The translations under genes and the position numbers were made by a program. Below the pieces are notes generated by a model. The model was not told the origin of the DNA, made no database searches, and was given only the letters and a program-made list of their open reading frames with translations. A stretch of 59,244 bases of DNA from positions 1 through 59,244 of the IMG/VR virus record IMGVR_UViG_3300042922_001463; one strand, 5' to 3'. Below, in pieces: positions 2,355 through 57,914 of the stretch. The DNA comes from a virus. Positions within the stretch are counted from its first letter, which is position 1; every line of letters starts with the position of its first letter.

Positions 2355-2386
2355 GCTAGTCTCCAGATTGTCAGGGGGATCACGCG

Positions 2387-2584
2387 ATGCAGTTCAGCAC
2401 CGAGTGGTGGGCGGGCTTCGGCCTCGTCTTCGCGGCCATCGGCACGATCACCGTCATGTTCTGCTGGTGGATGGATCGGCGCATCGCGCGCTTCGCGGCT
2501 GACGACGCCGAGGTGCAGGAACGCCTGAGCCGCAGCGCGAGAAGCAACGCCGTCGAACGTGGCGCCAGAAAGGAAAAGCCGTGA
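2387..2584 (+). CDS. Small single-TM protein, unknown
   Basis: 65 residues. One hydrophobic segment at about residues 8-28 is followed by a positively charged cytoplasmic-type tail. No family recognised. It runs opposite to the lysis and tail genes and overlaps the next gene by GTGA, so the two form a small independent unit. A moron-type addition is the simplest reading. Confidence 0.6.
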   Translation: MQFSTEWWAGFGLVFAAIGTITVMFCWWMDRRIARFAADDAEVQERLSRSARSNAVERGARKEKP

Positions 2585-2778
2585 GCGACGAAAAGAGGCT
2601 GCTTGAGATGCTGTCCGAACTAGAAGGAGCGATCGAGGATCATTCCTACGCCCTCGCTGCGGCTCGCAAGCCGTCGCTGACGCGAGAGGAGCGGCTGGCA
2701 GTGGTCAGAGCCAGCAGAAGGTCCTGGCGGCAACTCGAGGAAGCTTGGCAGGCCGTCGACAAGTTGGCGGCTCAATAG
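2581..2778 (+). CDS. Small helical protein, unknown
   Basis: 65 residues starting at GTG in a GTGA overlap with the preceding gene. Highly charged (Glu/Arg/Lys), predicted all-helical with coiled-coil character, no membrane segment. Possibly a cytoplasmic partner of the preceding membrane peptide; no family recognised. Confidence 0.55.
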   Translation: MSDEKRLLEMLSELEGAIEDHSYALAAARKPSLTREERLAVVRASRRSWRQLEEAWQAVDKLAAQ

Positions 2779-2876
2779 AGTTGACCGGCGATGGGTCCCT
2801 AAGGGGACGGACCCTGAGAACTTGACCTAGTATCCGGCCATAAGCACGTATCTCGGCTAGATCTAGGCACTGACGC

Positions 2877-3275
2877 ATGACACTCGCCCCGCTACTCGAC
2901 GCTTCGGCAGCCATTCAACTACATGCCTTCAGCGCGATGGCGGCGCTCGCGCTCGGCGTCGCGCAGTTGGTAGCTCCCAAGGGCACTCTGCCGCACCGTA
3001 CAGTCGGATGGGCCTGGGCGGCGCTGATGCTGATCGTGGCGGTGAGCTCCTTCTGGATACATGAAATGCGCTGGATCGGCCCGTTTGGCCCGATTCATCT
3101 ACTCTCCCTCTACGTGCTGTGGGCACTGCCGACGGGTGTACTCAGCGCCCGCCGTCATGTCGTGCCGCGCCATGCCGCCGCCATGCGGGGGCTATTCTTC
3201 GGCGGATTGGTGCTCGCGGGGCTTTTCACGCTCTGGCCGGGACGGATTATGAACCAAGTCGTTTTCGGCCCCTGA
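2877..3275 (+). CDS. DUF2306-like four-TM membrane protein (moron)
   Basis: 132 residues with four hydrophobic segments (about 15-35, 43-62, 67-87 and 105-125). The histidines HAF near the N-terminus, PHRTVGW and RHAAAMRG match the DUF2306 pattern seen in chromosomal membrane proteins of rhizobia and relatives. It stands between the lysis and tail blocks on the opposite strand, ending a few bases before the DUF4376 gene. It is probably a lysogenic-conversion gene acquired from a host genome; its function is unknown. Confidence 0.65.
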   Translation: MTLAPLLDASAAIQLHAFSAMAALALGVAQLVAPKGTLPHRTVGWAWAALMLIVAVSSFWIHEMRWIGPFGPIHLLSLYVLWALPTGVLSARRHVVPRHAAAMRGLFFGGLVLAGLFTLWPGRIMNQVVFGP

Positions 3276-3282
3276 CGAGCGG

Positions 3283-3729
3283 TCAGTTCGGCCAGTGCAC
3301 GTCGTCGGTGATGTCGGCCGGCATCGGGTCCGCCGCCTGCAAGGCGAAGCTGGCCTGCCAGATCGGCTGGCGGAAGTTCGCCGAGGCGAGGAGCACCTGC
3401 TGCCACTCGGCCGCCGTGACAGAAACCGGGCCGGTGCTGGTCAGGATGAGGATCTCGGTCGCCGGCACGCCGGCATTGATGGCGGCATTGGCGAGCATGG
3501 TCACCTCGTCCCAGCCCTTCATGTCTTCAGGCGCGGTCGCAATGTGATGCACGCCGCGCTCGTCGCCGAAGTCGTAGTCGAAGCCCAGAGCGAGGCGGCG
3601 CTCACGCTCGGCAAGAACCTGGGCGACAGAGGGCGGCAGCGAGGCGTCGGCTTCATACTGCGCCACAGTCTCAGCATCGGCCTCGGTGATCTCGCCAGTT
3701 GTAGAATTGAGTATCAACATCTCACTCAC
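3283..3729 (-). CDS. DUF4376 tail-fibre-associated protein
   Basis: 148 residues. The N-terminus resembles short phage proteins that read back a fibre gene end (ILNSTTGEITEADAETVAQYEAD). The C-terminal ~100 residues match DUF4376, with RRLALGFDYDFGDERGVHHI, DMKGWDEVTMLANAAINAG and an ending in AxAWQAxF-like pattern (QPIWQASFAL). DUF4376 proteins are encoded next to tail fibres and are thought to take part in fibre assembly. It overlaps the fibre gene upstream by four bases. Confidence 0.7.
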   Translation of the reverse strand: MSEMLILNSTTGEITEADAETVAQYEADASLPPSVAQVLAERERRLALGFDYDFGDERGVHHIATAPEDMKGWDEVTMLANAAINAGVPATEILILTSTGPVSVTAAEWQQVLLASANFRQPIWQASFALQAADPMPADITDDVHWPN

Positions 3730-9600: not shown

Positions 9601-10017
9601 TCAGTCCGTTACGGGCTCGAAGAAGCGGATGCGCCCCCAGCCCTGCATGCGCAGGGCGGCGACCGGATCGAGGCGAGAGCCGGAGCCCTCGTCGCAATGG
9701 GAGACGAGGCGTTCGGGGGCGAGCCAAACGCCGATATGAGCGGCGCGATCAGCGCGCCCCATGGCGACCAGCGCGCCGTCGGCGGCACTGATCAAGCCCG
9801 GCGCCGGCGGCACGGCCTCATGCCACCTCTGGCGCTCCGGATGGCCTTCTATGGTCTCGATCATCCAGCGCCAGCCGGGATGCTCCGGCAGAACGACGTC
9901 CGGAAGGTCGCGGCCGAACAGCTCGCGCTCGACAAGCTTCGCGTGATGCCAGCAAGAATAGTCCGGCGACCAGCGCCGACCGATCAGGCCGGCGAGGAAG
10001 GCGCTGCGATCCGTCAT
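9601..10017 (-). CDS. NlpC/P60-family tail peptidase (lambda GpK-like)
   Basis: 138 residues. YSCWHHAKLVERELFG carries the likely nucleophile Cys, and AHIGVWL holds the second catalytic His, the signatures of the phage NlpC/P60 peptidase group. It would be part of the tail tip and could locally hydrolyse peptidoglycan during DNA entry. It overlaps the DUF1833 gene by four bases and precedes the J-like gene by five bases. Confidence 0.8.
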   Translation of the reverse strand: MTDRSAFLAGLIGRRWSPDYSCWHHAKLVERELFGRDLPDVVLPEHPGWRWMIETIEGHPERQRWHEAVPPAPGLISAADGALVAMGRADRAAHIGVWLAPERLVSHCDEGSGSRLDPVAALRMQGWGRIRFFEPVTD

Positions 10018-10550
10018 CGCACCAGCCCCGCGAAAGCGGCGCGGGTGTAGACGTTGCGCGGGAATTTCTTGTTGCCGAGGTTCGACAGAGAGGCCGCTCC
10101 GGTCACGGAGCTGCCGACCACCTTCGCCTTGGAGATCAGGAACTCCACCGGTCCATAGATCGGCTCGGAAGGGTCGTCGTCGCGATACTCGCGGTAGATC
10201 GCCTTGAGGTCGGCATTGTAGCCGACGGCCGCCTCGAGATAGGCGGTCAGCTCGCGCGCGACGTTGTCGATGGCGATCGGCGCCTGCGGAATCTGCCCCT
10301 GCGAGAGCTCGGCGAAGGGCGAGGTGAAGGCCGCCGGCTCGAAGATCGCCATCTGGCCGGGATTGAACAGCCCGCCCGGCTCAATGCCGAGCGAGCGGGG
10401 CATGACGTCATGCACTAGGCGTGCCGGCACTTCATTGCCCTCTTCGTCCTGAATCGCCGGGTGCTGCAGCTCCAGCGTGACGAAGACGTCGAAGTCCGTG
10501 GTGCTGGAAGCCTCCGCCTCTTCCCACGCGGCGTTGTGGGGCACGCTCAT
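10014..10550 (-). CDS. DUF1833 minor tail protein (lambda GpL-like)
   Basis: 178 residues from the ATG at 10550, chosen because upstream residues in this frame are Arg-rich noise over the preceding gene. Features: VFVTLELQHPAI near the N-terminus, IDNVARELTAYLEA in the middle and GAASLSNLGNKKFPRNVYTR at the end, all usual for DUF1833. Tail-tip structural protein; it overlaps both neighbours by four bases, as expected for tightly coupled M-L-K genes. Confidence 0.8.
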   Translation of the reverse strand: MSVPHNAAWEEAEASSTTDFDVFVTLELQHPAIQDEEGNEVPARLVHDVMPRSLGIEPGGLFNPGQMAIFEPAAFTSPFAELSQGQIPQAPIAIDNVARELTAYLEAAVGYNADLKAIYREYRDDDPSEPIYGPVEFLISKAKVVGSSVTGAASLSNLGNKKFPRNVYTRAAFAGLVR

Positions 10551-10939
10551 GGCGACACCGGCACGAGCTCGGCCGGCAGCACGAGCAGCGAGAACGACAC
10601 CATGGTCTCGGCGCCGATCGAGCCATACTGGATGCCGCCGGCGCCACCGATGATCTGCACGACGCGAGTCGTATAGGTCTGGCCGTCCAGCGACACCGGC
10701 ATGAGGAAGCGCGTCGCGCCGCCGCCGATCGTCGCGAGGAAGGCCGTGAAGCTGGCCATCTGCGCGCCGGTCAGGCCGCGACCCCACCTGCCTGTGCCGA
10801 CGCCGTCACCGGGACGGCGCCGCTGACGCGTGTCCCCGCCTTCCATCTCGGTGGAGATCACCTCCCGACCCGGAACATAGCCCCATGCGGATCGCTCCGG
10901 GCGGAATGGGACCGCGCTCGGCCATTCAGCGTATGCCAT
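10547..10939 (-). CDS. Minor tail protein (lambda GpM-like position)
   Basis: 130 residues, beta-rich, with PFRPERSAWGYVPGREVISTEMEGG at the N-terminus and repeated hydrophobic strands. It lies exactly between the tape measure and the DUF1833 gene, where lambda has gpM. It touches the tape-measure stop by one base. Function is inferred from order; no enzymatic motif. Confidence 0.7.
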   Translation of the reverse strand: MAYAEWPSAVPFRPERSAWGYVPGREVISTEMEGGDTRQRRRPGDGVGTGRWGRGLTGAQMASFTAFLATIGGGATRFLMPVSLDGQTYTTRVVQIIGGAGGIQYGSIGAETMVSFSLLVLPAELVPVSP

Positions 10940-13900
10940 TAGCCCAGATCCCCACGGCGCAGGCCGTAACGGCGTTCGACTGCCGTAGCGACGTCTCCGC
11001 CATCTTCGAATTGCCGGCTCACCTCGTCAGCGGCGACACGGCGCATCATCAGCTCGATGTCGATTCCGCCATCAGCTCCCATCGTCGCCCGCGTCCGTGC
11101 GGTGTAACCCGCCGGGGCATTGCTGACGTGTACCGAGATGCGCGGCGGCGCCATGGGCCGGCTGTTGTCATTCGCCGTGCCGCGGAACGCCCGCAGCGCA
11201 TCGGCGACACCGACGGCGCCACCGGCGTCATAGCCCCTGAGACCGCGATGCAGCGCGTCGAGGTTGCCGACGCCGGCGCTCCGGACCGCCTCCTGCGAGA
11301 ACACGAACTCGCCGCGATGCACGAGACCGGCGGCGTCGTACTTGCCGCCGGCGCCGGTGTACCCGCCGGTCGCGTAGATCGAGCCGGAGGCCGCCGCGAA
11401 ACCAGAAGAAGCCCCGGTAGATGGCGCCCCGAAGTTGAGAAATCCGGCCACGATGCTGCCCAGCGTGTTGCTACCGCTCGTGCCCGGCCCGAAGAGGCTC
11501 GCCGCCAGGTTCTGCATCGCGATGTCGAGAACGACGTTCAGTGCGCGCTTGGCGGCGTTCTCCAGCGCCTCCATGGCATCCGCGCCGTCGAGGATGTCGC
11601 TGACGAAGCCGGAGAGGAAATCGCCGGCTATGTCCCGGGTGGTGCTGAGGATGGCGTTCAGCCGCAGCGCCTGTGCCTCGAAGGAATCCAGGTCGACGGC
11701 GAGGCCGGCGGAGCGCAGCGTCGAGGCGATCTGCTGATCGATCGGGCCGCGGCCCAGCTGATCGCGCTCAAACTGGATATCCGCCATCAGGTTCAGGCGC
11801 GCCGTCAGCTCCGCCTTGCGGCCGAGCTCGGCGTTCTGCTGCTTCAGCAGTTCAAGCTGGCGTTCATCTACGGCGGTGCCGTTGGCTTCGGCCTCACGCT
11901 TCAGTTCCCAATAGCTCTGGAAGTTGGCCCGGAGCTCGGCGACCTCGCCAGCCGTCTTCCCGATGAGATCGGCTTCAAGTTCCTGCGCTGCGACGCTCTG
12001 CTGCGCGCCGAGCAGACGATCCCGACCGGCCTGGTCAAGTGCCACCGTCGCCTGCGTCAGTTCGCGCGTAGCCGCCGCCTCGGCGCGCGCGGCCGCGGTC
12101 TTGCCGTCGGCCCCTTCGGTCTCTGCCCGGTAGCGCTCAAGTGCCGCCGACGCGGCCGCACGCTGTTCCGGCGTGATCGCCTTCAGCAGGGCGATCTCAA
12201 GTTCCTGCTCACGGCGAACGACCTCGGCCTGCGGAACAAGGTTCCCATAGGCGTCGGTCATCGACCGGATTTGGTTCGTGACGCCTTCGAGGGCCCTTTG
12301 CTGCCCAGCCGTATCACCAAGACCGTGATCGAGGGCGCGCTGCAAATCAGCCTGCTGCTCCTGAAGACGGAGCAGATCCCCGTAGCGGCTGTCCCAAGAA
12401 CGAAGCGCGTCGCCGCCCGCTGTCGAGTATCGGTTGAGCTGAGCTTCGTTGGCGCGCAGCGCGGATAGTCGCCGCTGCTGCTCCATGTAATCCTCGACCA
12501 CGGCCATCTCGGCCTCGATCGCGGACTTCCTCCATCCCGCCCACGACGGAGTTTCCTCGAGATTGCGCTGCAAGTCCGCCAAGCGCTGCTGCGTCAGCGG
12601 AATCTCGAAGCTCTCACTAATGATTTTGCCAGTATTAGCAAAGCCTTCGGAGATCGAGTTCGAGACGGACTTCCACGCGCGCCCGAGGGCGGTCAACCGG
12701 CTTTCCGCCTGAGGCAGCACGCGAACCAAGCGGTCGAGCAGCACTGCCTGTGCTTCGGTGGTACGGTTCGCCGCCTCAAGCCCCTTTACGTATTGAAGCG
12801 TTGTATCATCGAGAAAATTCAGCTTGAGGTTCAGATCATCGGCACCCTTTGCCGGATCTGCGAATGCTTCTGCCAATTCTTGCCCGGCCTGCACGACGTC
12901 GCCCGTCGTGATGCTTGCATAGTTCGCAGCAGCTTCGGTTAGTCCGATAAAGAACTGCGTCCCGATACGACCGGTCGCCGCGAACGCGCCAGCAATATCG
13001 CGCGCCGCCCCTTGGGAGATGTCGGCGGCATCAGCGGCCGCGGATGCAATAGCCATAATATCTTGCACCGAGGCGCCAGTTTCACGCCCTCGGCCGGCTA
13101 GTGCGGCTTGCAGTTCCTTTTCCGCCAAGATCCAGCTGGCATAGGCGGCGGTTGCCGTCACCCCTACCGCCGCGATAGCCGTGACCGCCGCGCCCATTGG
13201 CGTGACTAGACCGGCCATCGAATTTCCCAGCGCGCGCACGCCAGCGACCACACCGCCCTCGCGGGTGGAGAGGATCTGGTAGATCTGGCCCGCCTGCGAC
13301 GCGAAGACCTGCATGGGGTTGGCCCCCATCGCCAGCATCGTGACGATGTCGTTGATTTGAAAGGACAAATTCGACAGGTCGAAGGTGCTCAGCGTGCGGC
13401 GCGTTTGCTCAAAGCCGCGAAGCATGACGATCTGCTGCGCGAAGGCGTCCTTGGTCCGCTGGATCGAAGCGGCACGCTCGGTCTCGGTCAGGATGCCGAG
13501 TTTGGCCGCCTGATTGATCTCTTGGAGATTATCGAGGTAAACGCGCTGCACCTGCGCGAGCGGCAGGTATTTCTCCCGCAGGCGCTGGATTTCGTTGCCG
13601 ACCGCGGCGATGTCGGCCGCACGCGTGTCAGTGCCGAAATCATCGCGCACGCCGAGGCGCTGATTGATGCCCGCCTGCGCCGCGGCCGATCGCGCACGTG
13701 CGAGTTCCGCTTCAGCATCCCGGGCCTTCACCACCTCGGCGATGTAGCGCTCATATTCTCGGCGCACCGAGGCGACCGCGTCCGCCTCGGCCTTCGCGCT
13801 CGCGGCACCGAGACTTCCGAAGAGCCCATTGGCCCGCTCGTTGGCGGACTGGCGAGCGGAAAACGGAGCCGACGCCCGACCAAGCCCGCTGAGCGCGCGC

Positions 13901-27725: not shown

Positions 27726-29600
27726 TCAATCTCCCAGGAGGCGCTCGACGGCGTCTTCCGCTTCCCAGAACGAGCGCCCCTTGGGCTTCACGTTCTTGAT
27801 GGCAAAGCCGGTGGCCATGGCGATGGTGACCATTCCGTCGATACGGCCACGCGACCGCTTTTTGTCGAAGGCTCTGTTGTTCATGCCGTCCGAGGTGACA
27901 TGCGCGTTCGCAGCGCAGGAATAGGTCACCGGCGAAGCGTCAATGAGGATCGTCTTGTTCAGGATCCTGTCCTCGAGCGTCTCGGTGGATCGGGGCATGC
28001 AAAGTCGCTCGATCGGCTTCTTCTGCTCGTCGAGCTGCTTATAGAACAACACCCTCGTGCCCTGGCCGTGCGGCACCAGCATCAATCCGGTTCCGCGGAT
28101 GGTCTCGGGACCTTCATAAAGCCAGGCGACAAGCCCGACCTGCTCGCACGCATCCATGAATTCGCCGATGCCGGCAGGATCGAATGCGAGCCCTTGAACG
28201 TCATGGCTGGCGCAGAGCTTCGCCACCAAGGCGGCAACGAAGGTCTTATCGATCACGGCTCCATCGACGGCGGTGAGATGATCTTCCAGCACCCACCGGT
28301 CGTAAGGTGCCTGATCCGCCTTGACCCGCTCCGCTAGGCCGTTCTTCGTCGTCCAGTACCAGGTCTTCGCGTAGAGTTTCCCGTCCTTCAGCCAGACCGC
28401 GGTCAGGGCGGTGAGGTCATTTTTCTGCGACAGGTCGAGAGACAGCCAGCAGGGGCAGCCCTTGAATTCATCCGGATTGACCTTGCCCTGAACGGCCGAC
28501 CAAGCCTCCTCTGCAATCCAGAACTCCGTCGCGCCGATCGGAATGCCAAAGTACAGGCGCTTTACTGATAGCGACGTCGACAGGAGGACCTTGGCGGTCT
28601 TCACCTGGCCACGGATGTTCTCGATTGGAAAGGTGATACCAAGAGCAGGGAGCGCCTTCGGCCAGCACTTTTCGTTCTCGAAGACCGTTTCCCTATCCTT
28701 CGTGTCGACCCGCGCAACGAAGGCGAACGCCTCGTCGTCGTCGACCTCCCCTTTTGCGACCTTCTGGTAGAACTCCGAGTATTCGGTGCCGACCAGCTGC
28801 GTCGAGGATGGCGTATTGGTGCCGAGCAGCATGAGAGCGTCACCCGGCATCTTGCCGATAGCGCCCTTCCACACCTCGATCGACGTGTTGTTCTTGAACT
28901 CGTGGATTTCGTCGGCCAGTACCGCCGCCGGACGCGGGCCGGATATGGCCTCGCCGTTCGCCAGCGACTGGAATTTCGAGCTCGTTTCCGGATGCTCGAT
29001 CTTCCAGGCGTTGTCGAGCTCGCCACGGATGATGACCTCGCCGCGTTGCTCGAGGGTGTCGGTCTCGTCGTCGCCGGGTGGAATCGGCGCTCGGCACATC
29101 GCCACGGCGTCCTTGAACAGGACGTTTGCGGTCGCGCGGTCCTGACCGATTGAATAGACCTCCGAACGCTGGATGCCGTACCAGCCCATGAGGTAGAGGC
29201 CGATCGCCGCCATGAAGGGGCTCTTGGCCTGCCCCTTCCCCGTTTCGAACCACCCGTGCCGAAATCTCATGCGGCCCGTCGCCAGCCGCCAGCCGAACAG
29301 AGAGCCTCCGCAGAAGACGTGCCACGGCAGCGGGTGAAACGGTTTGCCCTGCAGCGACCCAGCCGTGATGCTCAGAACCGCCGGCATGAAGCGGAGAGGG
29401 ACCGCCGCCTTCTCCGGCCGCCAGAAGAGGCCCCGGCGCTCACCATCGCGGATGTCGCGGAGATGGCGCTCCGCCGCGTGACAGACCAACTCCCCTGCTA
29501 CGATACGACCGGCGACAACTTGCCTAGCCCAATCGGTCGTCGGGTCACTTGGATACTGGCCGGAGGAACTCGTCCGCGGCGCGCTGGGCTTTCTTGCCAC
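27726..29600 (-). CDS. Terminase large subunit
   Basis: 624 residues of the Terminase_1 (HK97/P27-type) group. An ATPase domain comes first: Walker A-like ETGKGQAKSPF (about residue 118), Walker B VLADEIHEF, and the coupling motif LLGTN. The C-terminal nuclease has acidic residues in LSLDLSQKNDLTAL and AFDPAGIG. It packages DNA into proheads and cuts it at cos or pac. The residue before the Walker Lys is Ala where this group usually has Gly. It overlaps the small-subunit gene by 56 bases. Confidence 0.93.
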   Translation of the reverse strand: MARKPSAPRTSSSGQYPSDPTTDWARQVVAGRIVAGELVCHAAERHLRDIRDGERRGLFWRPEKAAVPLRFMPAVLSITAGSLQGKPFHPLPWHVFCGGSLFGWRLATGRMRFRHGWFETGKGQAKSPFMAAIGLYLMGWYGIQRSEVYSIGQDRATANVLFKDAVAMCRAPIPPGDDETDTLEQRGEVIIRGELDNAWKIEHPETSSKFQSLANGEAISGPRPAAVLADEIHEFKNNTSIEVWKGAIGKMPGDALMLLGTNTPSSTQLVGTEYSEFYQKVAKGEVDDDEAFAFVARVDTKDRETVFENEKCWPKALPALGITFPIENIRGQVKTAKVLLSTSLSVKRLYFGIPIGATEFWIAEEAWSAVQGKVNPDEFKGCPCWLSLDLSQKNDLTALTAVWLKDGKLYAKTWYWTTKNGLAERVKADQAPYDRWVLEDHLTAVDGAVIDKTFVAALVAKLCASHDVQGLAFDPAGIGEFMDACEQVGLVAWLYEGPETIRGTGLMLVPHGQGTRVLFYKQLDEQKKPIERLCMPRSTETLEDRILNKTILIDASPVTYSCAANAHVTSDGMNNRAFDKKRSRGRIDGMVTIAMATGFAIKNVKPKGRSFWEAEDAVERLLGD

Positions 29601-35576: not shown

Positions 35577-36185
35577 TCATCCGGCCGCCTCCGTGGCGTC
35601 GAACTTCGTCGCTTCGTTGCCCCAGGTATCCCAGCCGGCGCGCGACTGCCGGGAGAAGACGGACACACGCCGCGCCTCCGGCCACGCCTTCTCAACGGCC
35701 GCGTAGAACTCGTCGGGCTTGCGGGAATGCTCCCTGGCAACGCCGTCGATCGCATCGGCTTCGAGCGTCTCGACGAGATTGGGGAAGCCGGCTCCCTTCC
35801 ATGACGACCCGGGCAGCCGCGCGATGATGTACGGCTCGTGGAGCGACCGGGCGACATAGCCCGTGCCCCAACGCGCCTTGCCTGACGGGTATCGCTTGGT
35901 CCATCCGCCGCCGGTCACCGGCAGCAGGCCCCAACCACGGATCACCTCGACATGGGCGCCGATCGCCACGAGCGGCCAGGTGCACCACATGATGCACACG
36001 CCGCCGGGCGCTATCAGATTGCCGACCGGCAGAGCCTTGATGTCCTCCAGCGACATCGTCTGGTACTGCGCCTGGGCGGACTTCTTCTCCCCCTTGGCCG
36101 AACGAAGGGCGAAGGTCCACGCGGGGTCGAGCTCGACCACGTCATAGGCAAACATCGACAGAGGGAAGAACGGCCAGCCGGTCAC
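35577..36185 (-). CDS. MT-A70 family adenine-N6 DNA methyltransferase
   Basis: 202 residues from GTG 36185, in a GTGA overlap with the DnaA-like gene. VVELDPAWTFALRS carries the catalytic DPPW-type motif as DPAW. AQYQTMSLEDIKALPV, MWCTWPLVAIGAHVEVIRGWGL and KPDEFYAAVEKAWP complete the MT-A70 pattern. It would methylate adenines, protecting phage DNA from restriction or altering methylation signals that control host replication (CcrM-like effect, inferred). It is the last gene of the block that starts at the Cro-like gene. Confidence 0.85.
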   Translation of the reverse strand: MTGWPFFPLSMFAYDVVELDPAWTFALRSAKGEKKSAQAQYQTMSLEDIKALPVGNLIAPGGVCIMWCTWPLVAIGAHVEVIRGWGLLPVTGGGWTKRYPSGKARWGTGYVARSLHEPYIIARLPGSSWKGAGFPNLVETLEADAIDGVAREHSRKPDEFYAAVEKAWPEARRVSVFSRQSRAGWDTWGNEATKFDATEAAG

Positions 36186-37585
36186 GCTGCGTTCTCCTGC
36201 AGCATGGCCTCGAGCGCCTTCACCTCCGCAGCCACATCGGCGCCGGACGTCACCAGCCCGTCGATCTTGCGCACGGCGTGCAGCACGGTCGTATGGTCGC
36301 GCCCGCCGAAGCGCCGGCCGATCTCCGGCAGCGAGCGCAGGGTCAGCGTCTTGGCGAGGTACATCGCGATCTGACGCGGCTTCACCACGTTCGCGGTGCG
36401 ACGCTGGGAGAGGATGTCGGCGCGGCTGACGCTGTAGCGCTTCGTCACCGCGCGCATGATGTCGTCGATCCGGATCCTCTTCGGCTCGGCCGTGCGGATG
36501 AGGTCCCGCAACGCCGATTCCGCCACCTCTGGCGTGATCTCACGGCCGGTCAGCTGGTTGTGCGCCAGTAGACGGTTGAGCGCGCCGTCGAGGTCCCTCC
36601 CCGTGCGTCCGCAGTGGCGGGCGACATATCGGAGAATGTCCGGCTCGATGCCGAATCCCGGATACTGCTGGGTGAGCACGCTGAGGCGGGATGTCAGGAT
36701 GCCGAGCTTGAGCTCTTCCTCCAGCGGGGCGATCTCGACGACAAGCCCGCCCGCCATACGAGACCGCGCACGCTCGTCCATGGCGTCGAACTCGGCGGGT
36801 GAGCGGTCGGCGGCGAGCACCACCTGGCGGCGGCACGCGATCACGGTGTTGAGCGTGTAGGCGAACTCCTGAAGGACGCTCTTGCCCTGCAGGAACTGCA
36901 CGTCATCGATGATGAGCACGTCTGCGGCGCGCAGGGCCTCCTGGAACGCCGCGGCCGACTGGCTCTTCAGCGCGGCCACGAAGCCGAACATGAAGCGCTC
37001 GGCGGTCAGGTACAGGACGCGGCGCCCACCTTCGGCGCTGGCGGCAGCGATGGCCTGAAGCAGGTGCGTCTTGCCCAGCCCGACGCCACCATGAAGGAAC
37101 AGCGGGTTGAACACCGGATCGCTGATGAGCGGGCCGCCTGCGACCCTCTTGGCCGCGGCGTGGGCGAGGCGGTTGGAATCGCCCAGCCTGAAGGCGTCGA
37201 AGGTCAGCCGAGGATCGAGCGGCGATGAGAGCGGCGCGTCTTCGACATGAACCGGCGGCGTAGCGGGCGCCAGCCGCGGCGCCGGCATGCTCACCGGAAC
37301 GGGACGGGCGGGCCGGGATGGCGGGTTCAGCTTCGCCTGGCGGACGTTGATGACGAGGCGAACGCCCGGCTCGACGGTCTGCCAGATCTCGGTCAGCACC
37401 GCCTCATAGTGCTGCGCGATCCAGACCTTAAGGAATCGCGTCGGGACCGAGAGCACGACGACGTCATCGGCGCAGCTCTCGAACTCCAGCCGGATGAACC
37501 AGCTCGCGTAGACCTCCTCGCCCACGCGCGCCCTCAGGATGGTGCGGAGGCGGGTCCAGGTCTCGGCATCGACGGTCGTTTCCAT
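36182..37585 (-). CDS. DnaA-like replication initiator (phage-encoded paralogue)
   Basis: 467 residues from the ATG at 37585, the full DnaA size. Domain I: TWTRLRTILRARVGEEVYASWF. A Pro-rich domain II linker (90-120). AAA+ domain III with Walker A GGVGLGKTHLL and Walker B VLIIDDVQFLQGK, and RSRMAGGLVVEI near the arginine-finger region. Domain IV has VKPRQIAMYLAKTLT and the DnaA signature GGRDHTTVLHA. It should bind DnaA boxes and load DnaB, at a phage origin or at host oriC. No phage helicase or loader is encoded nearby, so it probably recruits host DnaB. Confidence 0.93.
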   Translation of the reverse strand: METTVDAETWTRLRTILRARVGEEVYASWFIRLEFESCADDVVVLSVPTRFLKVWIAQHYEAVLTEIWQTVEPGVRLVINVRQAKLNPPSRPARPVPVSMPAPRLAPATPPVHVEDAPLSSPLDPRLTFDAFRLGDSNRLAHAAAKRVAGGPLISDPVFNPLFLHGGVGLGKTHLLQAIAAASAEGGRRVLYLTAERFMFGFVAALKSQSAAAFQEALRAADVLIIDDVQFLQGKSVLQEFAYTLNTVIACRRQVVLAADRSPAEFDAMDERARSRMAGGLVVEIAPLEEELKLGILTSRLSVLTQQYPGFGIEPDILRYVARHCGRTGRDLDGALNRLLAHNQLTGREITPEVAESALRDLIRTAEPKRIRIDDIMRAVTKRYSVSRADILSQRRTANVVKPRQIAMYLAKTLTLRSLPEIGRRFGGRDHTTVLHAVRKIDGLVTSGADVAAEVKALEAMLQENAA

Positions 37586-37596
37586 CGCGGCCACCC

Positions 37597-38556
37597 TCAA
37601 TGTTGGAGAAAGGCGACGCGCCGGCGGCTCTGCCAGCACAGCGCGCAGGTGGAGCAGGATTCCGTCTTGCCGATCTGCTGCGGACAGAGCACGGCGTCGG
37701 GCGGAAGCTGCCGGGGATGCTCGATCGTCACCGTCGAGCATTCGTCGATCAGCGCGTTCGAGAAGCGGATGGCGAAGCGGTCCCAGCGCGCCATGACCAG
37801 GCGCACGAGCGCACGCGCAACGGGATCGTCGATGCCGTCGATGCGGGCGGTGAAGCCGAAGACATGCAGGGCAGGATATCGGTCGAGGAACCCGGCCCAC
37901 AGGGCGACATAGTCCGGCGAGTAGAAGTCGCCGAGCACATGGAGCCGAACGGCGAAACCACGAGGGTGCCGCGATTGCAGGATGGCGAGCTCATGCCCGA
38001 GCCTCTCTTCCAGCGCAGCGCCGTGCTGCACGCGCTTGGCCCAGCGCATATGATTGCCGTAACAGGAGCGCCAATGCCGGCAGGAGACCTGGCACGTCGC
38101 CCGCTCCTCCAGCGTCAGCGTGTAGACCGGGAAGCCCGTCCAGGCGCCCTTGCGGATTTCGCCGCCGATCTTCCAGTGGTTCACGCCCGAGACGAGGATG
38201 TTAAGCAGCCCGTCGACCGGGACAACCGTCGAGGGATAGAGGGTGCGGTCCTCGACCAGGGCGACATGATCGACCGGCGGCATGTTCGCCGCTCGTTCAG
38301 TAGCCACCTTGGGAGCGTGACGGCTGACGCTCTGCTTGGACCGTCGCCGCTTGCCGACGGCGAGGCCAAGCGCCTTCCGTCGGCTGTGGACGAGTTGCTT
38401 GGAGCAGCCGAAGCGATCCGCGATCTCGGAATCCGTCAGTTCCTCCGCCACCGCCGCGCGCAGAGCATCCTCCGGCAGCTTGGGGCGCCGGCCGGGCCGC
38501 ACCGGGAACGGCACGACCTGCTGCTGGAGAAGGTTCGGGAGGATCCGGCCGGTCAC
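37597..38556 (-). CDS. GP88-family protein with N-terminal HTH
   Basis: 319 residues from GTG 38556, in a GTGA overlap with the upstream gene. An N-terminal homeodomain-like helix-turn-helix (PKLPEDALRAAVAEEL, DSEIADRFGCSKQLVHSRRKALGL) precedes the GP88 domain, whose hallmark is TCQVSCRHWRSCYGNHMRWAKR. It ends in a second Cys cluster SCSTCALCW. Six or more conserved Cys suggest a metal or Fe-S centre; a radical-SAM relationship has been suspected for such phage proteins but is not established here. Located between the DnaA-like and CtrA-like genes. Confidence 0.75.
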   Translation of the reverse strand: MTGRILPNLLQQQVVPFPVRPGRRPKLPEDALRAAVAEELTDSEIADRFGCSKQLVHSRRKALGLAVGKRRRSKQSVSRHAPKVATERAANMPPVDHVALVEDRTLYPSTVVPVDGLLNILVSGVNHWKIGGEIRKGAWTGFPVYTLTLEERATCQVSCRHWRSCYGNHMRWAKRVQHGAALEERLGHELAILQSRHPRGFAVRLHVLGDFYSPDYVALWAGFLDRYPALHVFGFTARIDGIDDPVARALVRLVMARWDRFAIRFSNALIDECSTVTIEHPRQLPPDAVLCPQQIGKTESCSTCALCWQSRRRVAFLQH

Positions 38557-41037: not shown

Positions 41038-41139
41038 TAGCGGAGGTATTGGGAGACACGGCGTGCGAGAACGTTGTCCAGACGACACGCGACTTGAACG
41101 TGGAGGCCGGACCGCCGGCGGGGAGAAGCAGTAGACCAA

Positions 41140-41379
41140 TCATGCGGCCTCCCCGTCGTTGGTGGCGGCCACACCGGGCATCTCGAAGAACCAGGCATCA
41201 TCCCAAGCCAACCCGCGGCTCTTGGCGGCCTCGCGGATGCGCGCCAGTTGAGCCCTGTCCGGCTGAAGGTCGCCCTTCTCCCAGCGAGACACCGTCGCCT
41301 GCGTGGTGCCCGCGATAGCGGCAAGCTCCGCCTGGGAGATATCGAGGACCGATTTGCGGATGATGGGCATCGGGTTCAT
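41140..41379 (-). CDS. Cro-like repressor (XRE family HTH)
   Basis: 79 residues from the ATG at 41379. RKSVLDISQAELAAIAGTTQATVSRWEKGDLQPDRAQLARI is the classical XRE helix-turn-helix. It is divergent from the CI-like gene across a set of palindromes. A promoter with -35 TTGCCA (41414-41409) and -10 TATGTT (41392-41387) would start transcription at about 41380, so the mRNA appears leaderless. Longer Met-rich starts up to 41436 are in frame but run across the operators. Confidence 0.85.
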   Translation of the reverse strand: MNPMPIIRKSVLDISQAELAAIAGTTQATVSRWEKGDLQPDRAQLARIREAAKSRGLAWDDAWFFEMPGVAATNDGEAA

Positions 41380-41440
41380 ATACATGAACATACTCATATG
41401 CATGACCATGGCAAGGCAAATCATGCACTCGTGCATTAGA
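41375..41440. promoter_or_regulatory. OR-like operator/promoter region of the genetic switch
   Basis: Three palindromes stand in a row: TTCATATACATGAA (41375-41388), TCATATGCATGA (41394-41405) and ATGCACTCGTGCAT (41423-41436). The minus-strand Cro promoter (TTGCCA 41414-41409, TATGTT 41392-41387) is overlapped by the first two; the third lies toward the repressor gene. The TCAT-N4-ATGA half-site pattern recurs at 45293-45350. Confidence 0.75.
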
Positions 41441-41471
41441 TTTGCTTTATGCGTTCGCGTATGAGGTTGTC

Positions 41472-42146
41472 ATGGATGTCGTGGGAACGGTCGACGCGAT
41501 CCTGAAGGCTAGGAACTGGACGCACGAGGAACTCGCTGCGGCCATTGGCGTGACACAGCCGGCTGTGTCGCGCTGGGCATCAGGGAAGGTCATTCCGCGC
41601 GGCGAGAGCTACTTGAAGCTCATGGCCCTTCGGGAAGAGGTGGAGGGTGGAGCGCCGCTTGATGCTGCCCGCCCCGTTCGCGCGCAAATCGTGCCGACGC
41701 CCATTTCTGGAAAGGCCAGCGCCGGCGTCTTCCAAGAGATTGATGACTTCGAGAACCAGGATCCCGCCGAAGTTCTTGTAGCTCGCGACCCGCGGTTCCC
41801 GCACGCCCGCGTCGTCGTCTTCGATGTCGACGGCAATTCCATGAATGCATTCGACCCACCGATCCCGGACGGCTCTCGCGTCAGCGGCCCCGTCTTTGAG
41901 GACATCCGCGAGGTTCCGCGAAACGGCATGGCCGTGGTCATCCAGCGATCAACTGCTGACGGGCAGATGCTCGAGTGGTCGGTGAAGGAGATCGAGGTGC
42001 GGGAGGACGGCTACACGTTCCATCCCCGCTCCACGGATGCCCGCTACAAGCCAATCGTCGTCGATACCGACCTCAATGCCGATGACGGGAAAAAGGTCGA
42101 GATCATTGCGCTGGTGACGGATGTTACGCGGCCGGTGAGGTGGTAA
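41472..42146 (+). CDS. CI-like phage repressor with S24 (LexA-like) peptidase domain
   Basis: 224 residues from the ATG at 41472, with GAGG five bases upstream. An N-terminal XRE helix-turn-helix (WTHEELAAAIGVTQPAVSRWASGK) is followed by an S24 peptidase: DVDGNSMNAFDPPIPDGSRV carries the catalytic Ser (GNSM) and RNGMAVVIQRS lies at the Lys position, although the usual Lys is not obvious there. It keeps the prophage silent and should be cleaved or inactivated in the SOS response. It heads an operon with two further genes up to the terminator at 43873-43903. Confidence 0.87.
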   Translation: MDVVGTVDAILKARNWTHEELAAAIGVTQPAVSRWASGKVIPRGESYLKLMALREEVEGGAPLDAARPVRAQIVPTPISGKASAGVFQEIDDFENQDPAEVLVARDPRFPHARVVVFDVDGNSMNAFDPPIPDGSRVSGPVFEDIREVPRNGMAVVIQRSTADGQMLEWSVKEIEVREDGYTFHPRSTDARYKPIVVDTDLNADDGKKVEIIALVTDVTRPVRW

Positions 42147-42172
42147 GGAACTCATCGCCAGGGGGCTTGCCA

Positions 42173-42676
42173 ATGGTCGGAGATGACCCTGTTTTGCCGC
42201 GCACATTGCGGCAGGAAAGCTTGTCGAAAGTCTATGTGCGCGCCGTAGCGGCAGCTGCCGGCTATGATGTCGCCACCACCGAGTTCGACATGGAAGGGAT
42301 CGACCTCACAGTCGTCGCTGGCGGCCATATGCGGCCTCGCTTGGATATACAACTGAAAGCAACGACAACCCTGCCACTCAGTATAGGCCCCATCCAATTC
42401 CCTCTGAAGCGCCGCAACTACGACTTATTGCGCGAGCCAAGCCTGACACCTCGAATATTGGTTGTATTGGACTTGCCTAGCAACGAGGACGACTGGCTTT
42501 CAATTGAACCTAATGCCCTTATCATGCGCAAATGCGCCTTTTGGGCCAACCTCCGCTCTTATCCATCGACCACCAATACAGACTCTGTTACAATCTCGTT
42601 AGACACAGGACGTCGCTTTGACGTTGAGGGCCTCCAAGGCCTTATGGAGCAAGCACGCAAAGGGGCGATCACGTGA
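42173..42676 (+). CDS. DUF4365-like nuclease-fold protein (rex-position cassette, gene 1)
   Basis: 167 residues from the ATG at 42173. FDMEGIDLTVVAGGHMRPRLDIQLKATTTL gives the D...D-x-Q-x-K core of the PD-(D/E)XK-type DUF4365 domain. This domain is found in proteins of defence and mobile regions; the activity is presumed nuclease. It lies 26 bases after the repressor gene and overlaps the next gene by GTGA. Expected to be made in the lysogen with the repressor. Base composition is more A/T-rich than the flanks, suggesting recent arrival. Confidence 0.68.
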   Translation: MVGDDPVLPRTLRQESLSKVYVRAVAAAAGYDVATTEFDMEGIDLTVVAGGHMRPRLDIQLKATTTLPLSIGPIQFPLKRRNYDLLREPSLTPRILVVLDLPSNEDDWLSIEPNALIMRKCAFWANLRSYPSTTNTDSVTISLDTGRRFDVEGLQGLMEQARKGAIT

Positions 42677-43809
42677 AGGCGGTCATTCTAGATCCCGACG
42701 CCTTGCGGGCTATATCGCCGGCCGCCCTCGCCGCCTTTGCCAGAGGCGAGGGATGGAGAAAGCTTGAGCCTTATGGCGCCCATGCGGATGTCTATGTTGG
42801 TGTAGATCGCCCCGAGATCGTATTGCCTCGCACAGATCGTTTGGCGGACTACGCTTCTACGGTTTCAAGGCTTATCGAAGCGTTCTCAAGCGCGGCAGAG
42901 CGGGACGAATTAGCCACCTATCGGGATTTAGTTGGCGCCGATCGCGACGTCGTGAGGGTTCGCTCGTTCGGCGCGGATGATGATGGCTCCGTATCGCTTG
43001 ATGCCGGCGTAAAGATTGTAGCTCAGGCACGCGAAATGCTTCTTGCTGCTGCCTGCGCTGTTCACTCTCCGCAACCTCTGTATCGCGCCGGCGCGAACAA
43101 AGAAGCCGCAGAGTATATGCGTCGCGTGAGGCTTGGTCAGACGGAGCACGGAAGCTTCGTCGTGACCCTTCTGGCTCCCGTCCCTCCGCAACTACAGCCT
43201 CAACTTTCGCTCGACGACAACTGGATCGCTTTTGAAGACGAGCCGATGGAGCGAATGGTGACGAGGCGCCTAATCGAAGCGCTTGAGGCCTCACGCAGCG
43301 CAGCCGAAATGGCGCTGTCTGGAGAGGTCAGCGCCTTCGATAAGGTCATATCATCAGGCGTAAGCGCAAACCTTTGCGAGGCTGTTGCTGGATTGATAGA
43401 TCAATCAGCAGGACTCGACATTAGTGTGACTTGGGCAAGAACGCGCCCCGCTCCAGAGACCTTTCGAAGGATCAGCTTTTCCCAAAACGACGCAGAGATC
43501 CTCAAGGAAGTAGCGCGCATATTCAGATTAAAGCAGCCGAAACCGGACGTCACCTTGTATGGAACAGTACATAAGTTAAAGCGCGATCAGGATGAATTCG
43601 ACGGCGTAGTCACACTGAAGGCAATCATCGAAGATAAGCTCCAATCGGTACAAGCCGTACTTGATCAGGCAAACTACCGTGCTGCGATAAAAGCGCATGA
43701 CGAGCAAAAGTCTATTATAATCACTGGAGACCTTGAGCGCGTGGGGCAGAGGTGGCAACTCACGAATGGCAACATTCGAGAGTTGCTTGCCGAGGACGAG
43801 GATAGCTAG
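42673..43809 (+). CDS. Unknown 378-residue protein (rex-position cassette, gene 2)
   Basis: Starts at GTG 42673 in a GTGA overlap, so translation is coupled to the DUF4365 gene. No membrane segment, no signal peptide, no recognised domain. Mixed alpha/beta throughout; the C-terminal ~90 residues (VTLYGTVHKLKRDQDEFDGVVTLKAII, then KSIIITGDLERVGQRWQLTN) look like a small beta-barrel domain. Its 3' half is clearly lower in GC than the phage average. Followed by a terminator. Together with gene 1 a candidate superinfection-exclusion pair. Confidence 0.65.
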   Translation: MKAVILDPDALRAISPAALAAFARGEGWRKLEPYGAHADVYVGVDRPEIVLPRTDRLADYASTVSRLIEAFSSAAERDELATYRDLVGADRDVVRVRSFGADDDGSVSLDAGVKIVAQAREMLLAAACAVHSPQPLYRAGANKEAAEYMRRVRLGQTEHGSFVVTLLAPVPPQLQPQLSLDDNWIAFEDEPMERMVTRRLIEALEASRSAAEMALSGEVSAFDKVISSGVSANLCEAVAGLIDQSAGLDISVTWARTRPAPETFRRISFSQNDAEILKEVARIFRLKQPKPDVTLYGTVHKLKRDQDEFDGVVTLKAIIEDKLQSVQAVLDQANYRAAIKAHDEQKSIIITGDLERVGQRWQLTNGNIRELLAEDEDS

Positions 43810-43814
43810 AAGCC

Positions 43815-43865
43815 CTACCCCGCCTCCAACACCCCCTCCGGCACTTCGCCATAGCTGGCGATCAG
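43815..43865 (-). pseudogene. Fragment: duplicated 3' end of the gene at 44392-44640
   Basis: The minus strand encodes LIASYGEVPEGVLEAG and a stop, matching the last residues of the 44392-44640 product (LIASYGEVPEGMLEPG). The 51 bases align without gaps to 44392-44442 (42 of 51 identical by eye). No start or upstream part of the gene remains. Confidence 0.75.
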
Positions 43866-43872
43866 ATCAAGC

Positions 43873-43903
43873 GCCCGCCCTCCTCGTGAGCGGCGGGCTT
43901 TTT
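43873..43903 (+). terminator. Rho-independent terminator of the repressor operon
   Basis: Stem GCCCGCC (43873-43879) / GGCGGGC (43892-43898) followed by five T. It closes the unit repressor - DUF4365 - unknown gene (41472-43809). Confidence 0.85.
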
Positions 43904-44016
43904 CGTAGCTGCTCCCGCCCGGCCTTGAATGGCGCGGCAGCCCGGTTCAGCCATCGTTCATGTCACTCCTGCTTTCCTCTAAACAAGGGGCGGAAGACCC
44001 GGACGTGGAGGAAGCG

Positions 44017-44376
44017 ATGGACAGACGTTCATTCCTCACTGGCCTGTTGGGACTTTCTGGCGCCGCCGCTACGGCGAGCTGGCTTGTCCCGGCGGCTGAA
44101 GCCACACCGCTAGAGCAGCTTCGAAATCTGCCATCCACGTCCGACGGTGAACTCGCCGATACCGTTGGCGAAACGCCGGACGGGACAGCGGTCGAAGATG
44201 TTCAGTGGGATCGCCGCCGCCGCCGCTATCGCCGTCGCCGTGGATATCGCTATCGGAACAGGCGTCGCTACTGGGCCCGCCGTCGATATTGGCGCGGCCG
44301 CCGTCGCCGCTTCTGCCGCACGCGCTGGAATCGGTGGGGCAGACCCTACCGGCGGTGCTATTGGCGCAGGTGGTGA
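44017..44376 (+). CDS. Tat-exported Arg/Tyr-rich basic protein
   Basis: 119 residues from the ATG at 44017. MDRRSFLTGLLGLSGAAATASWLVPAAEA is a twin-arginine signal with an AEA cleavage site. The mature protein begins acidic and ends in an extremely basic tail of Arg, Tyr and Trp (RRRRRYRRRRGYRYRNRRRYWARRR...). This family is widespread in rhizobia, where it is annotated as protamine-like; function unknown. It lies between two copies of the same 51-base sequence, so it looks inserted. Confidence 0.7.
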   Translation: MDRRSFLTGLLGLSGAAATASWLVPAAEATPLEQLRNLPSTSDGELADTVGETPDGTAVEDVQWDRRRRRYRRRRGYRYRNRRRYWARRRYWRGRRRRFCRTRWNRWGRPYRRCYWRRW

Positions 44377-44391
44377 TGGGTGTAGCTGAAG

Positions 44392-44640
44392 CTATCCGGG
44401 CTCCAGCATTCCCTCGGGAACTTCGCCATAGCTCGCGATCAGCACTGGCGGTTCGGCGTCGCCGCTCTCCGGTTCCACTTCGGTTGAGAACGCGATAGCG
44501 CCAGCCTTCACCAGGCTTAGGCGCTTCGCCACCCGCTCCGCGTCCTCAGCGCTGCGGACTTCCATCGGAATCCCCGCCTTGATCCGACCGCGCTTGCCAG
44601 CTTCAAAGGGCTGGACGACATAGAACGTCTTCTTGGTCAT
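44392..44640 (-). CDS. Small protein, unknown
   Basis: 82 residues from the ATG at 44640. MTKKTFYVVQPFEAGKRGRIKAGIPMEVRSAEDAERVAKRLSLVKAGAIAFSTEV... ends LIASYGEVPEGMLEPG. This short beta-type protein family is known from rhizobial genomes and prophages without function. Last gene of a three-gene minus-strand set with the DUF3572-like and zinc-ribbon genes. Confidence 0.6.
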   Translation of the reverse strand: MTKKTFYVVQPFEAGKRGRIKAGIPMEVRSAEDAERVAKRLSLVKAGAIAFSTEVEPESGDAEPPVLIASYGEVPEGMLEPG

Positions 44641-45292: not shown

Positions 45293-45350
45293 TCATGCAC
45301 CAATGCATGATCCCTATTGTCAACGATCATGCACATAAGTATGTTCATGT
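45293..45350. promoter_or_regulatory. OL-like operator/promoter region for the rightward early operon
   Basis: The palindrome TCATGCACCAATGCATGA (45293-45310, 7-bp arms) resembles the site at 41421-41436, and ACATAAGTATGT (45333-45344) is a second inverted repeat. A plus-strand promoter with -35 TTGTCA (45317-45322), 17-base spacer and -10 TATGTT (45340-45345) is overlapped by the second. The 13-mer AGTATGTTCATGT (45338-45350) is identical to one at the Cro promoter (41394-41382, minus strand). The rest of 45199-45440 shows no gene. Confidence 0.75.
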
Positions 45351-52330: not shown

Positions 52331-54307
52331 ATGACGCGCAAGATCCTCGTCGCCGATCTTCTCTGCGGTGCCGGCGGCTCGTCGACCGGCGCGCAGCGCG
52401 CGCTTGCCGAGCTCGGGCTCGAGATGGAACTCGTCTGCGTCAACCACTGGCCGGTGGCGATCGACACCCATAGCCGCAACCATCCCGAGGCCCGGTACTA
52501 TGTGCAGGACATCTCGACGGTGCGACCGCACATCCTGGTGCCGGAGGGCTATCTCGACCTCCTGATGGCCTCGCCGACCTGCACACACCATTCGGTGGCG
52601 CGCGGCGGGAAGCCAACCAGCGACCAGCAGCGCAGCGATCCCTGGCACATCATCACCTGGCTCACCGAGCTCAGGGTGAAGCGCATCATCATCGAAAACG
52701 TGTGGGAGTTCATCGGCTGGGGGCCGGTCGACCCGAAGACGGGCAAGCCCATTCTCTCCCGCAAGGGCGAGTACTTCCACGCATGGATCGAGACCATCAA
52801 GCGGCTCGGCTTCGAGCCGGAGTGGCGCAAGCTGAACGCCGCCGACTATGGCGACGCCACCACGCGCCAGCGCTTCATCTTGATGGCGCGCTCCGACGGG
52901 CGGCGGGTGCACTGGCCCATGCCGACGCACCGCAAGCGCGACCAGATCTCCGATGACCTGTTTGGCGGCGCCAAGCCGTGGCGCCCGGCACGGGACATCA
53001 TCGACTGGCAGATCAAGGGCAAGTCGATCTTCAACCGGAAGAAGGCGCTCGCACCGAAGACGCTGGCGCGCATCTATGCCGGCGCGGTGAAATTCGGCTG
53101 GCCGGAGCCCTTTCTCGTCATCCTGCGAAACCACATGGCGGCGCAGGGCCTTGACCGGCCATTGCCGACCATAGCGGCGAACGCGACGCATATCGGGCTG
53201 GCGCAGCCGGTGATCGTCCGCAGCAACATGCATGGGCGGAAATCGCCGGGTGCGCGCGGTGCGCAGGATCCTTTGCCGACGATCACGACTGACGGCGACC
53301 TCGCCTTCGCCGAGCCCATCGTCCTGTCGCAGCACAACAGCGGCGCCGCGCGTTCGGCCGATGATCCCTTGCCCACCATCACCACGGGTGGGGCGGCGAC
53401 CGAGGACCATCCCGGCTGCGCGCGACCGATGCTGGTCGAGCCGTTCGTCATATCGCCACGGCATGGCAAGGACGATGCCGGTCCTCGGCCGCGCGCCGTA
53501 GGCGAGCCACTCCCGACGATTACGGCCGGCGGAAGCCAGGTCGCCATGGTTGAGCCTTTCGTGCTCTCCCGCCATGCGGAGGGCGCCGCCCGCTCTGTCG
53601 ACGAGCCAGTGCCTACTCAGGTCGCGAAGCACAGCCATCTGTTGATCACGTCTTACTACGGGCACGGCTGGCAAGAGAAAGCCGGCGCACCGCCGCCGTG
53701 CCAGAGCGCCGATGACCCGCTGCCGACCGTCACGGCCAAGGGCCGCTTCGGCATGGTGGTTCCCGTCACCCACTCGAAGGGCGGGAACGGAGCACGCGAC
53801 GTAGCGGAGCCGATTCCGACGCTGACGACGACCAAGGGCGGCGAATTCGCCGTCGTGATGCCGGTCACCCATCAGGACGGCAGCGACCGCGTGCGTGACG
53901 CTTCCGAGCCGCTCCCGACCATCACGGGCGCCAATCGCGGCGAGCTTGCCTTCATCGCCGCGCAGTTCGGCGAGCGCGAGGGCCAGGCGCCGCGCGTGCA
54001 TGACATCGGCGAGCCGATGCCGACCATCTGCGCCACCGGCGGCAGCACGACGCTCGTCGAGCCGGGGGACGGACAGCACTTCGACATCCTGTTCCGGATG
54101 CTGGAGCCGCACGAGCTCGCCGCTGCCATGGGCTTCAACACCGAGGAAGCAACCTATGAGTTCGCAGGCACCAAGACGGAACAGGTCAAGCAGATCGGCA
54201 ATGCCGTCGCCGTTCGGATGATGAAGGCGTGCGTCGGCGCGGTTATGGCCGATGCGGCGCCGAAGCGGCGTCAGAACGCCTCCGAGTTTCGGGATGCGGC
54301 CGAATGA
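52331..54307 (+). CDS. DNA (cytosine-5) methyltransferase with nine-repeat target region
   Basis: 658 residues, longer than usual for phage C5 methylases. Motif I ADLLCGAGGSSTG, motif IV with catalytic Cys84 in ASPTCTHHS, ENV motif IIENVW (about 122), motif VIII DATTRQRF (about 175) and motif X KQIGNAVAV near 620. Between VIII and X, where the target recognition domain lies, the unit (D/E)P(L/I/V/M)PTxT recurs nine times at about 276, 313, 345, 393, 425, 462, 493, 526 and 561, each followed by a hydrophobic strand. It should mark phage DNA against restriction; no cognate nuclease is adjacent. Confidence 0.92.
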   Translation: MTRKILVADLLCGAGGSSTGAQRALAELGLEMELVCVNHWPVAIDTHSRNHPEARYYVQDISTVRPHILVPEGYLDLLMASPTCTHHSVARGGKPTSDQQRSDPWHIITWLTELRVKRIIIENVWEFIGWGPVDPKTGKPILSRKGEYFHAWIETIKRLGFEPEWRKLNAADYGDATTRQRFILMARSDGRRVHWPMPTHRKRDQISDDLFGGAKPWRPARDIIDWQIKGKSIFNRKKALAPKTLARIYAGAVKFGWPEPFLVILRNHMAAQGLDRPLPTIAANATHIGLAQPVIVRSNMHGRKSPGARGAQDPLPTITTDGDLAFAEPIVLSQHNSGAARSADDPLPTITTGGAATEDHPGCARPMLVEPFVISPRHGKDDAGPRPRAVGEPLPTITAGGSQVAMVEPFVLSRHAEGAARSVDEPVPTQVAKHSHLLITSYYGHGWQEKAGAPPPCQSADDPLPTVTAKGRFGMVVPVTHSKGGNGARDVAEPIPTLTTTKGGEFAVVMPVTHQDGSDRVRDASEPLPTITGANRGELAFIAAQFGEREGQAPRVHDIGEPMPTICATGGSTTLVEPGDGQHFDILFRMLEPHELAAAMGFNTEEATYEFAGTKTEQVKQIGNAVAVRMMKACVGAVMADAAPKRRQNASEFRDAAE

Positions 54308-56557: not shown

Positions 56558-56580
<23 letters not shown>
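56308..56580 (+). CDS. Excisionase-like wHTH protein
   Basis: 90 residues from the ATG at 56308, in an ATGA overlap. PPAKAARRLHLTPAEFAAKLPELQRRGFPAADPTTGMYDLKAIDGWMDRR is the MerR/AlpA-like wHTH pattern of phage excisionases. Its 3' end overlaps the integrase start by 23 bases, the expected xis-int coupling. Confidence 0.72.

Positions 56581-57914
<1,334 letters not shown>

Follow-up and report, generated by a model that had tools for sequence, protein, structure and literature searches.

The DNA analysed here, which we call the window, comprises positions 1 to 59,244 (59,244 nucleotides) of IMG/VR virus record IMGVR_UViG_3300042922_001463. The record is classed as a virus and, judged by its gene content, is an integrated prophage, with a large terminase, an integrase-like ORF that runs into a tRNA-Asp gene, and host-like sequence beyond. 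Behind its CI-like repressor gene (cI) lie two further genes, A and B, in the following setting.

27726-29600: large terminase
41143-41370, minus strand: Cro-like HTH gene (HTH_3, E 4e-8), divergent from cI
41376-41437: OR-like operator region with sites near 41376, 41394 and 41421 (inverted match to OL, and repeats)
41472-42146, plus strand: CI-like repressor, HTH and S24 peptidase-like, 224 aa (HTH_3, 8e-9; Peptidase_S24, 2.8e-5; phrog_4 repressor)
42173-42676, plus strand: gene A (PDC-M02A), predicted stand-alone DREN/DUF4365 PD-(D/E)XK nuclease, 167 aa
42673-43809, plus strand: gene B (PDC-M02B), 378 aa
43815-43865, no strand assigned: relic of the 3' end of the right-flank gene, about 50 bp
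43866-44391, plus strand: extra segment of 526 bp between the relic and the intact flank gene, absent from relatives L027 and L028
about 43873-43903, plus strand: predicted intrinsic terminator, a GC stem followed by TTTTT (terminator scan and folding)
44392-44640, minus strand: right-flank gene bounding the slot, 82 aa (MTKKTFYV...), 88-89% identical in L029, L030 and L031
44968-45204, minus strand: small Cys-pair gene, upstream of the right-flank gene, 38% identical to genes of phi3LM21 and RHph_TM3_3_3
45293-45346: OL-like operator region (repeats, and inverted match to OR)
56558-57895: integrase-like ORF, running into the tRNA gene
57838-57914: tRNA-Asp, with host-like sequence beyond

The start codon of the Cro-like gene is uncertain, as its ORF stays open to 41436. 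The CI-like repressor is 37.5% identical to CI of phi3LM21, and a search of 385 Alphaproteobacteria with it gave no match at E 1e-25. Gene A has its best start at the ATG at 42173, leaving a gap of 26 nt to the cI stop. Gene B begins with the GTG at 42673 (ATCACGTGA), producing a 4-nt GTGA overlap with gene A. Shine-Dalgarno-like runs, found by direct reading of the sequence, precede both starts. The predicted terminator, with a folding energy of -19.6 kcal/mol (z -1.8), is located after B and is the only one in the cI-A-B stretch. No RNA was found in the region with Rfam, so nothing points to a guide RNA or to a control element of known type. A preliminary description of this DNA had claimed the order cI-A-B on one strand, the GTGA overlap and the terminator at 43873-43903; the first two are correct at the coordinates listed, and the terminator was recovered both by scanning and by folding.

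That description had also framed the unit with OR-like and OL-like operators, as in lambda, which our comparison bears out. The two regions hold a common 24-bp inverted word (ACATGAACATACTCATATGCATGA / ACATGAACATACTTATGTGCATGA) with 22/24 matches, a score reached by none of 300 shuffles. L027 and L028 have their own, different common word at both operator places. The DNA match between these relatives and the window is lost over cro, OR and the HTH part of cI, and returns inside cI at 41694. The different words and the break in the match therefore indicate that repressor specificity and operators were exchanged together. The block replaced relative to L027 and L028 spans 41050-41693 (cro, OR and the HTH half of cI), with a matching change at OL.

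Elsewhere in the window, the prophage encodes a full DnaA-like initiator (36182-37900, minus strand) with DnaA_N, ATPase and C-terminal HTH domains, in a region conserved in L027, L028 and L032. Upstream of the integrase, a large ORF (52331-54307, plus strand) looks like a cytosine-C5 DNA methyltransferase gene and contains a repetitive stretch in its interior. The extra segment at 43866-44391 holds an Arg-rich ORF (43960-44376) with a weak Tat-like signal (TAT_signal, below cut-off), and its match to TniQ was discarded as a composition effect.

Cargo exchange behind the repressor

The place occupied by A and B reads as an exchanged cargo position, since close relatives carry differing genes between the conserved repressor and the right flank. 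The flanks of the window are 80-95% identical at the DNA level to those of L027 and L028. On the left this match stops where cI ends (42147-42156), and it resumes on the right at 43809-43815 and again at 44392. The L027 slot (9877-10941) holds one gene on the strand opposite to cI, matching PDC-S42 at E 2e-47, and the L028 slot (9683-10757) holds two unnamed genes on the cI strand. In L029 the slot (2381-3298) is filled by a gene of 305 aa that runs against cI and has no match in PADLOC; this gene was considered as a PDC-S42 relative and rejected, as the two are not related.

Rhizobium phages repeat the pattern. The repressors of RHph_TM3_3_3 and RHph_N28_2 are 97% identical and their cargo differs: a DUF3800 gene in the first (L036 5492-6319), and in the second (L037 5511-6805) an overlapping pair that includes a PDC-M24B-like DUF1828 protein (E 3.5e-16, residues 16-145 only). 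In phi3LM21 the slot appears empty, CI being followed directly by the small minus-strand genes. Because the Cys-pair gene is homologous in the window, phi3LM21 and RHph_TM3_3_3, the locus can be recognised as the same one in Rhizobium and Sinorhizobium phages. A cI-adjacent immunity region acting as a mosaic hotspot with exclusion genes is known from lambdoid phages (PMC8585504) and from Pseudomonas putida P1 (PMC12894663).

Base composition and a recombination relic also point to exchange. The GC content is 0.547 for A (GC3 0.605) and 0.554 for B (GC3 0.566), versus a GC3 of 0.74-0.83 in eight other prophage genes. The relic at 43815-43865 is closer to the L027, L028 and L029 copies of the right-flank gene than to the window's own intact copy (44392-44442). 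This resemblance to the copies of other phages suggests that the relic is a footprint of acquisition from a related phage and was brought in with the cassette. The earlier claims of a two-gene cassette in the position of lambda rexAB, present as swapped cargo and richer in A/T than its flanks, thus agree with the slot comparison and with GC and GC3. When ten further genes of this region were run against PADLOC, a single weak match (3e-4, DnaA as ATPase) was the strongest result.

Genes A and B as PDC-M02

By profile match the cassette is a prophage-borne PDC-M02, a phage-defence candidate already catalogued in PADLOC. Gene A matches PDC-M02A at E 7.4e-55 (residues 11-165 of 167), and gene B matches PDC-M02B at E 4.2e-140 (residues 2-375 of 378) and phrog_27927 in PHROGs. 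The PDC entries of PADLOC come from a 'guilt-by-embedding' survey and are putative candidates, most of which have yet to be validated (PMC12988326). The survey itself, as cited in PMC13092281, is a preprint (doi 10.1101/2024.01.29.577857). Our literature search found neither the name PDC-M02 nor an experiment on it; the PADLOC version used dates from 2023, and later names or tests are possible. Two earlier statements need revision. The pair is not a new system, being PDC-M02, and phage records already deposited (Leptospira phage LE1, M. abscessus prophages) contain homologues. Gene B lacks a family in Pfam and NCBIfam, and the view that it belongs to no recognised family is true of those two libraries only.

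Gene A belongs to DUF4365 (PF14280, E 4.3e-21 in Pfam). Its catalytic core is D44...D58-x-Q60-x-K62, in which D44, Q60 and K62 are invariant in 28/28 relatives and D58 varies; the DUF4365 assignment and the D...D-x-Q-x-K core thus stand as first described. In a fold search with the predicted structure (pLDDT 82), the only PDB matches at E<1e-3 were SPARDA chains, and EcoRV came next. The match to a SPARDA DREN domain had a Foldseek E of 1.5e-5 and a probability of 1.00. PDB sequence searches, by single sequence and by profile, found no real relative of A or of B. On its modelled structure, A is a stand-alone DREN nuclease with the fold of SPARDA effectors and a complete catalytic triad.

Gene A is further diverged from its relatives than gene B, with identities to L001 of 0.55 and 0.78, respectively. 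The A gene of the window is 51-55% identical to those of L001, L002 and L003, which are 58-70% identical among themselves; B shows no such gap. The divergent A in the prophage lineage may reflect either faster change or a replaced A. The A gene of L002 (7505-7963, an Acetobacteraceae MAG) is without its C-terminal end, probably through a frameshift.

Modelling of gene B was less certain, with an AlphaFold model of moderate quality (pLDDT 76, pTM 0.59). The model predicts a C-terminal OB fold at about residues 290-370, like those of DNA-binding proteins and DNA sensors. The top PDB matches of this fold were nucleic-acid binders, namely SSB, RPA, RecG and HIN-200 DNA sensors, at E about 0.01 over ~95 residues. 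A Pfam OB-fold match (E 0.023) was retained only once the structure model agreed with it, and a match to ABC_trans_aux (0.0045), given by one alignment member only, was discarded as chance. No match identified the N-terminal region (residues 1-290). No similarity of B to Argonaute or PIWI was seen in Pfam, PADLOC or the PDB fold search. A viral scan with the B sequence alone found no relatives; broad B alignments were too diverse for scanning, and a narrower alignment served. Among viral models, the full-length match of B was a protein of the temperate Leptospira phage LE1 (E 1.5e-19).

The distribution of B is sparse. Relatives were found in 6/385 sampled Alphaproteobacteria with the family model, counting one centre genome chosen for having the gene, one marginal match and one genome with a split match. 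The profile found them in 10/399 sampled Pseudomonadota, again counting a centre genome chosen for having the gene. Co-occurrence of the two genes elsewhere had been set in advance as a test of the pair, and the pair passes it. In records with complete upstream sequence, a DUF4365 gene precedes B almost always, directly upstream on the same strand and in the same order as in the window. The linked pair occurs in Pseudomonadota, Bacillota, Actinomycetota, Spirochaetota, Leptospira and Mycobacterium hosts or phages. In phage LE1 an A gene precedes the B homologue, and in two M. abscessus prophages the pair makes up genes 1 and 2. The L007 locus, with B and no DUF4365 gene, is an exception; some other B hits lie at contig ends or are truncated, and at L057 the profile matched no A gene. 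Two phage contigs (L069 1438-2433 and L070 967-1962) carry a short B of 331 aa beside a pentapeptide-repeat ORF, without a DUF4365 partner.

Over 16 pairs, divergence in A goes along with divergence in B (Mantel r 0.87, 0/2000 permutations), a pattern that the shared descent of two linked genes also gives. Our reading of neighbouring ORFs places type III restriction-modification genes beside the pair in L001 and type I restriction-modification genes beside it in L003, L052 and L054. Abi and DUF262 genes, or cas3, adjoin it at further individual loci.

Proposed function and alternatives

The cassette is an ordinary member of a catalogued family of defence candidates, located where exclusion genes are expected. 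Both proteins match PDC-M02 over nearly their full length, in the same order and with the overlap, and the genes themselves do not differ from it; the window copy differs in its place, behind a prophage repressor and not in a restriction-modification or defence island. Gene A shares the DREN fold and catalytic D/Q/K with SPARDA. Unlike the SPARDA effector, its product (167 aa) ends after the nuclease domain, without APAZ, and its partner has no Argonaute similarity and ends in a predicted OB fold. As with lambda RexAB and the RexAB-type genes of the P. putida prophage P1, two genes lie downstream of a CI-like repressor on the same strand; the RexAB-type genes are presumed to be read in the lysogen (PMC12894663). 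However, RexB is a membrane protein and RexA binds DNA, whereas the window appears to encode a nuclease and an OB-fold protein. No match to the Rex families was found in four profile libraries, which may lack Rex models. BstA of the Salmonella prophage BTP1 is encoded by a defence gene that directly follows cI in the immunity region (PMC8585504), but it is one protein, unrelated to A and B, and comes with a DNA self-immunity element (aba).

We consider it fairly probable that the locus is an exchangeable anti-phage PDC-M02 cassette in the post-repressor slot of a lambdoid-organised prophage of alphaproteobacterial type. In the silent prophage, cI, A and B would form one transcript from the cI promoter. 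B may keep A inactive or monomeric until the OB fold of B encounters an invading phage's nucleic acid, such as replication intermediates, whereupon A would be assembled or released. Cleavage of nucleic acid by activated A would probably be indifferent to sequence, and the infected cell would die or stall ahead of maturation of the invader, probably as abortive infection. Induction of the prophage itself would switch the system off, because A and B would depend on the repressor transcript.

The sensing step is suggested by the combination of a DREN fold and triad in A with the modelled OB fold in B. There is precedent for the effector. Collateral cleavage by NbaSPARDA is driven by the DREN triad D41/Q60/K62 upon DREN tetramerisation, and DREN by itself is inactive; cleavage is lost with D41A or Q60A and impaired with K62A, and defence is lost with D41A as well (PMC12205087). 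The counterparts of these residues in A are D44/Q60/K62. A related DUF4365-APAZ/short-Ago complex degrades DNA non-specifically (PMC10810196).

Several observations weigh against the anti-phage reading. PADLOC candidates rest on gene neighbourhood, and for B we have a moderate model and OB-fold matches at weak E values only. We rejected the notion that slot cargo is always co-transcribed with cI, as the L027 and L029 cargo lies on the opposite strand; co-transcription is no general rule of the slot.

Two overlapping genes, a nuclease and a larger partner, found on plasmids and prophages and here in a position that guarantees expression, could also form a toxin-antitoxin or addiction module, with A as toxin and B as antitoxin, that stabilises the prophage or plasmid and has no anti-phage role. 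We consider this unlikely, given that small labile antitoxins look quite different from this large (378 aa), highly conserved partner, that the nuclease gene comes first, and that restriction-modification, Abi or cas genes often adjoin the pair. Many toxin-antitoxin modules double as abortive infection systems, so this reading and the defence reading overlap.

It is less likely still that the pair serves the prophage's own biology through DNA processing, repair or the tuning of induction. An OB fold with a nuclease is also a repair-like combination, and RexAB has been reported to aid the passage of lambda from lysogeny to lytic growth (work cited in PMC12894663). However, the pair is also found outside prophages in restriction-modification settings, and close prophage relatives do without it, with unrelated genes in its place. 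That A and B are passenger DNA, recently captured and silent or non-functional in this phage, seems very improbable. The low GC3 and the relic do show recent capture, and A is the more diverged gene, but both frames are open, with starts and overlap preserved and no residue of the catalytic triad lost.

The swap of slot contents among close relatives and the DREN/OB interpretation are the new points of this analysis, and they give an otherwise ordinary cassette its added interest. PDC-M02 is catalogued and widespread, and the fold evidence offers a concrete, testable mechanism in which a known collateral-nuclease effector is joined to a possible DNA sensor. It is tempting to go further, and we do so tentatively. 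PDC-M02 might be an Argonaute-free counterpart of SPARDA, its DREN nuclease switched on by an OB-fold sensor of phage DNA, and lambdoid-like prophages of Alphaproteobacteria might keep a dedicated post-repressor slot that exchanges PDC-M02, PDC-S42, PDC-M24-like systems and others; we doubt that both are true together. The natural swaps, with the same repressor C-terminus and flanks and other cargo between them, are ready comparisons for whether the slot is a defence slot. The unannotated cargo of L028, L029 and RHph_TM3_3_3 offers further candidates.
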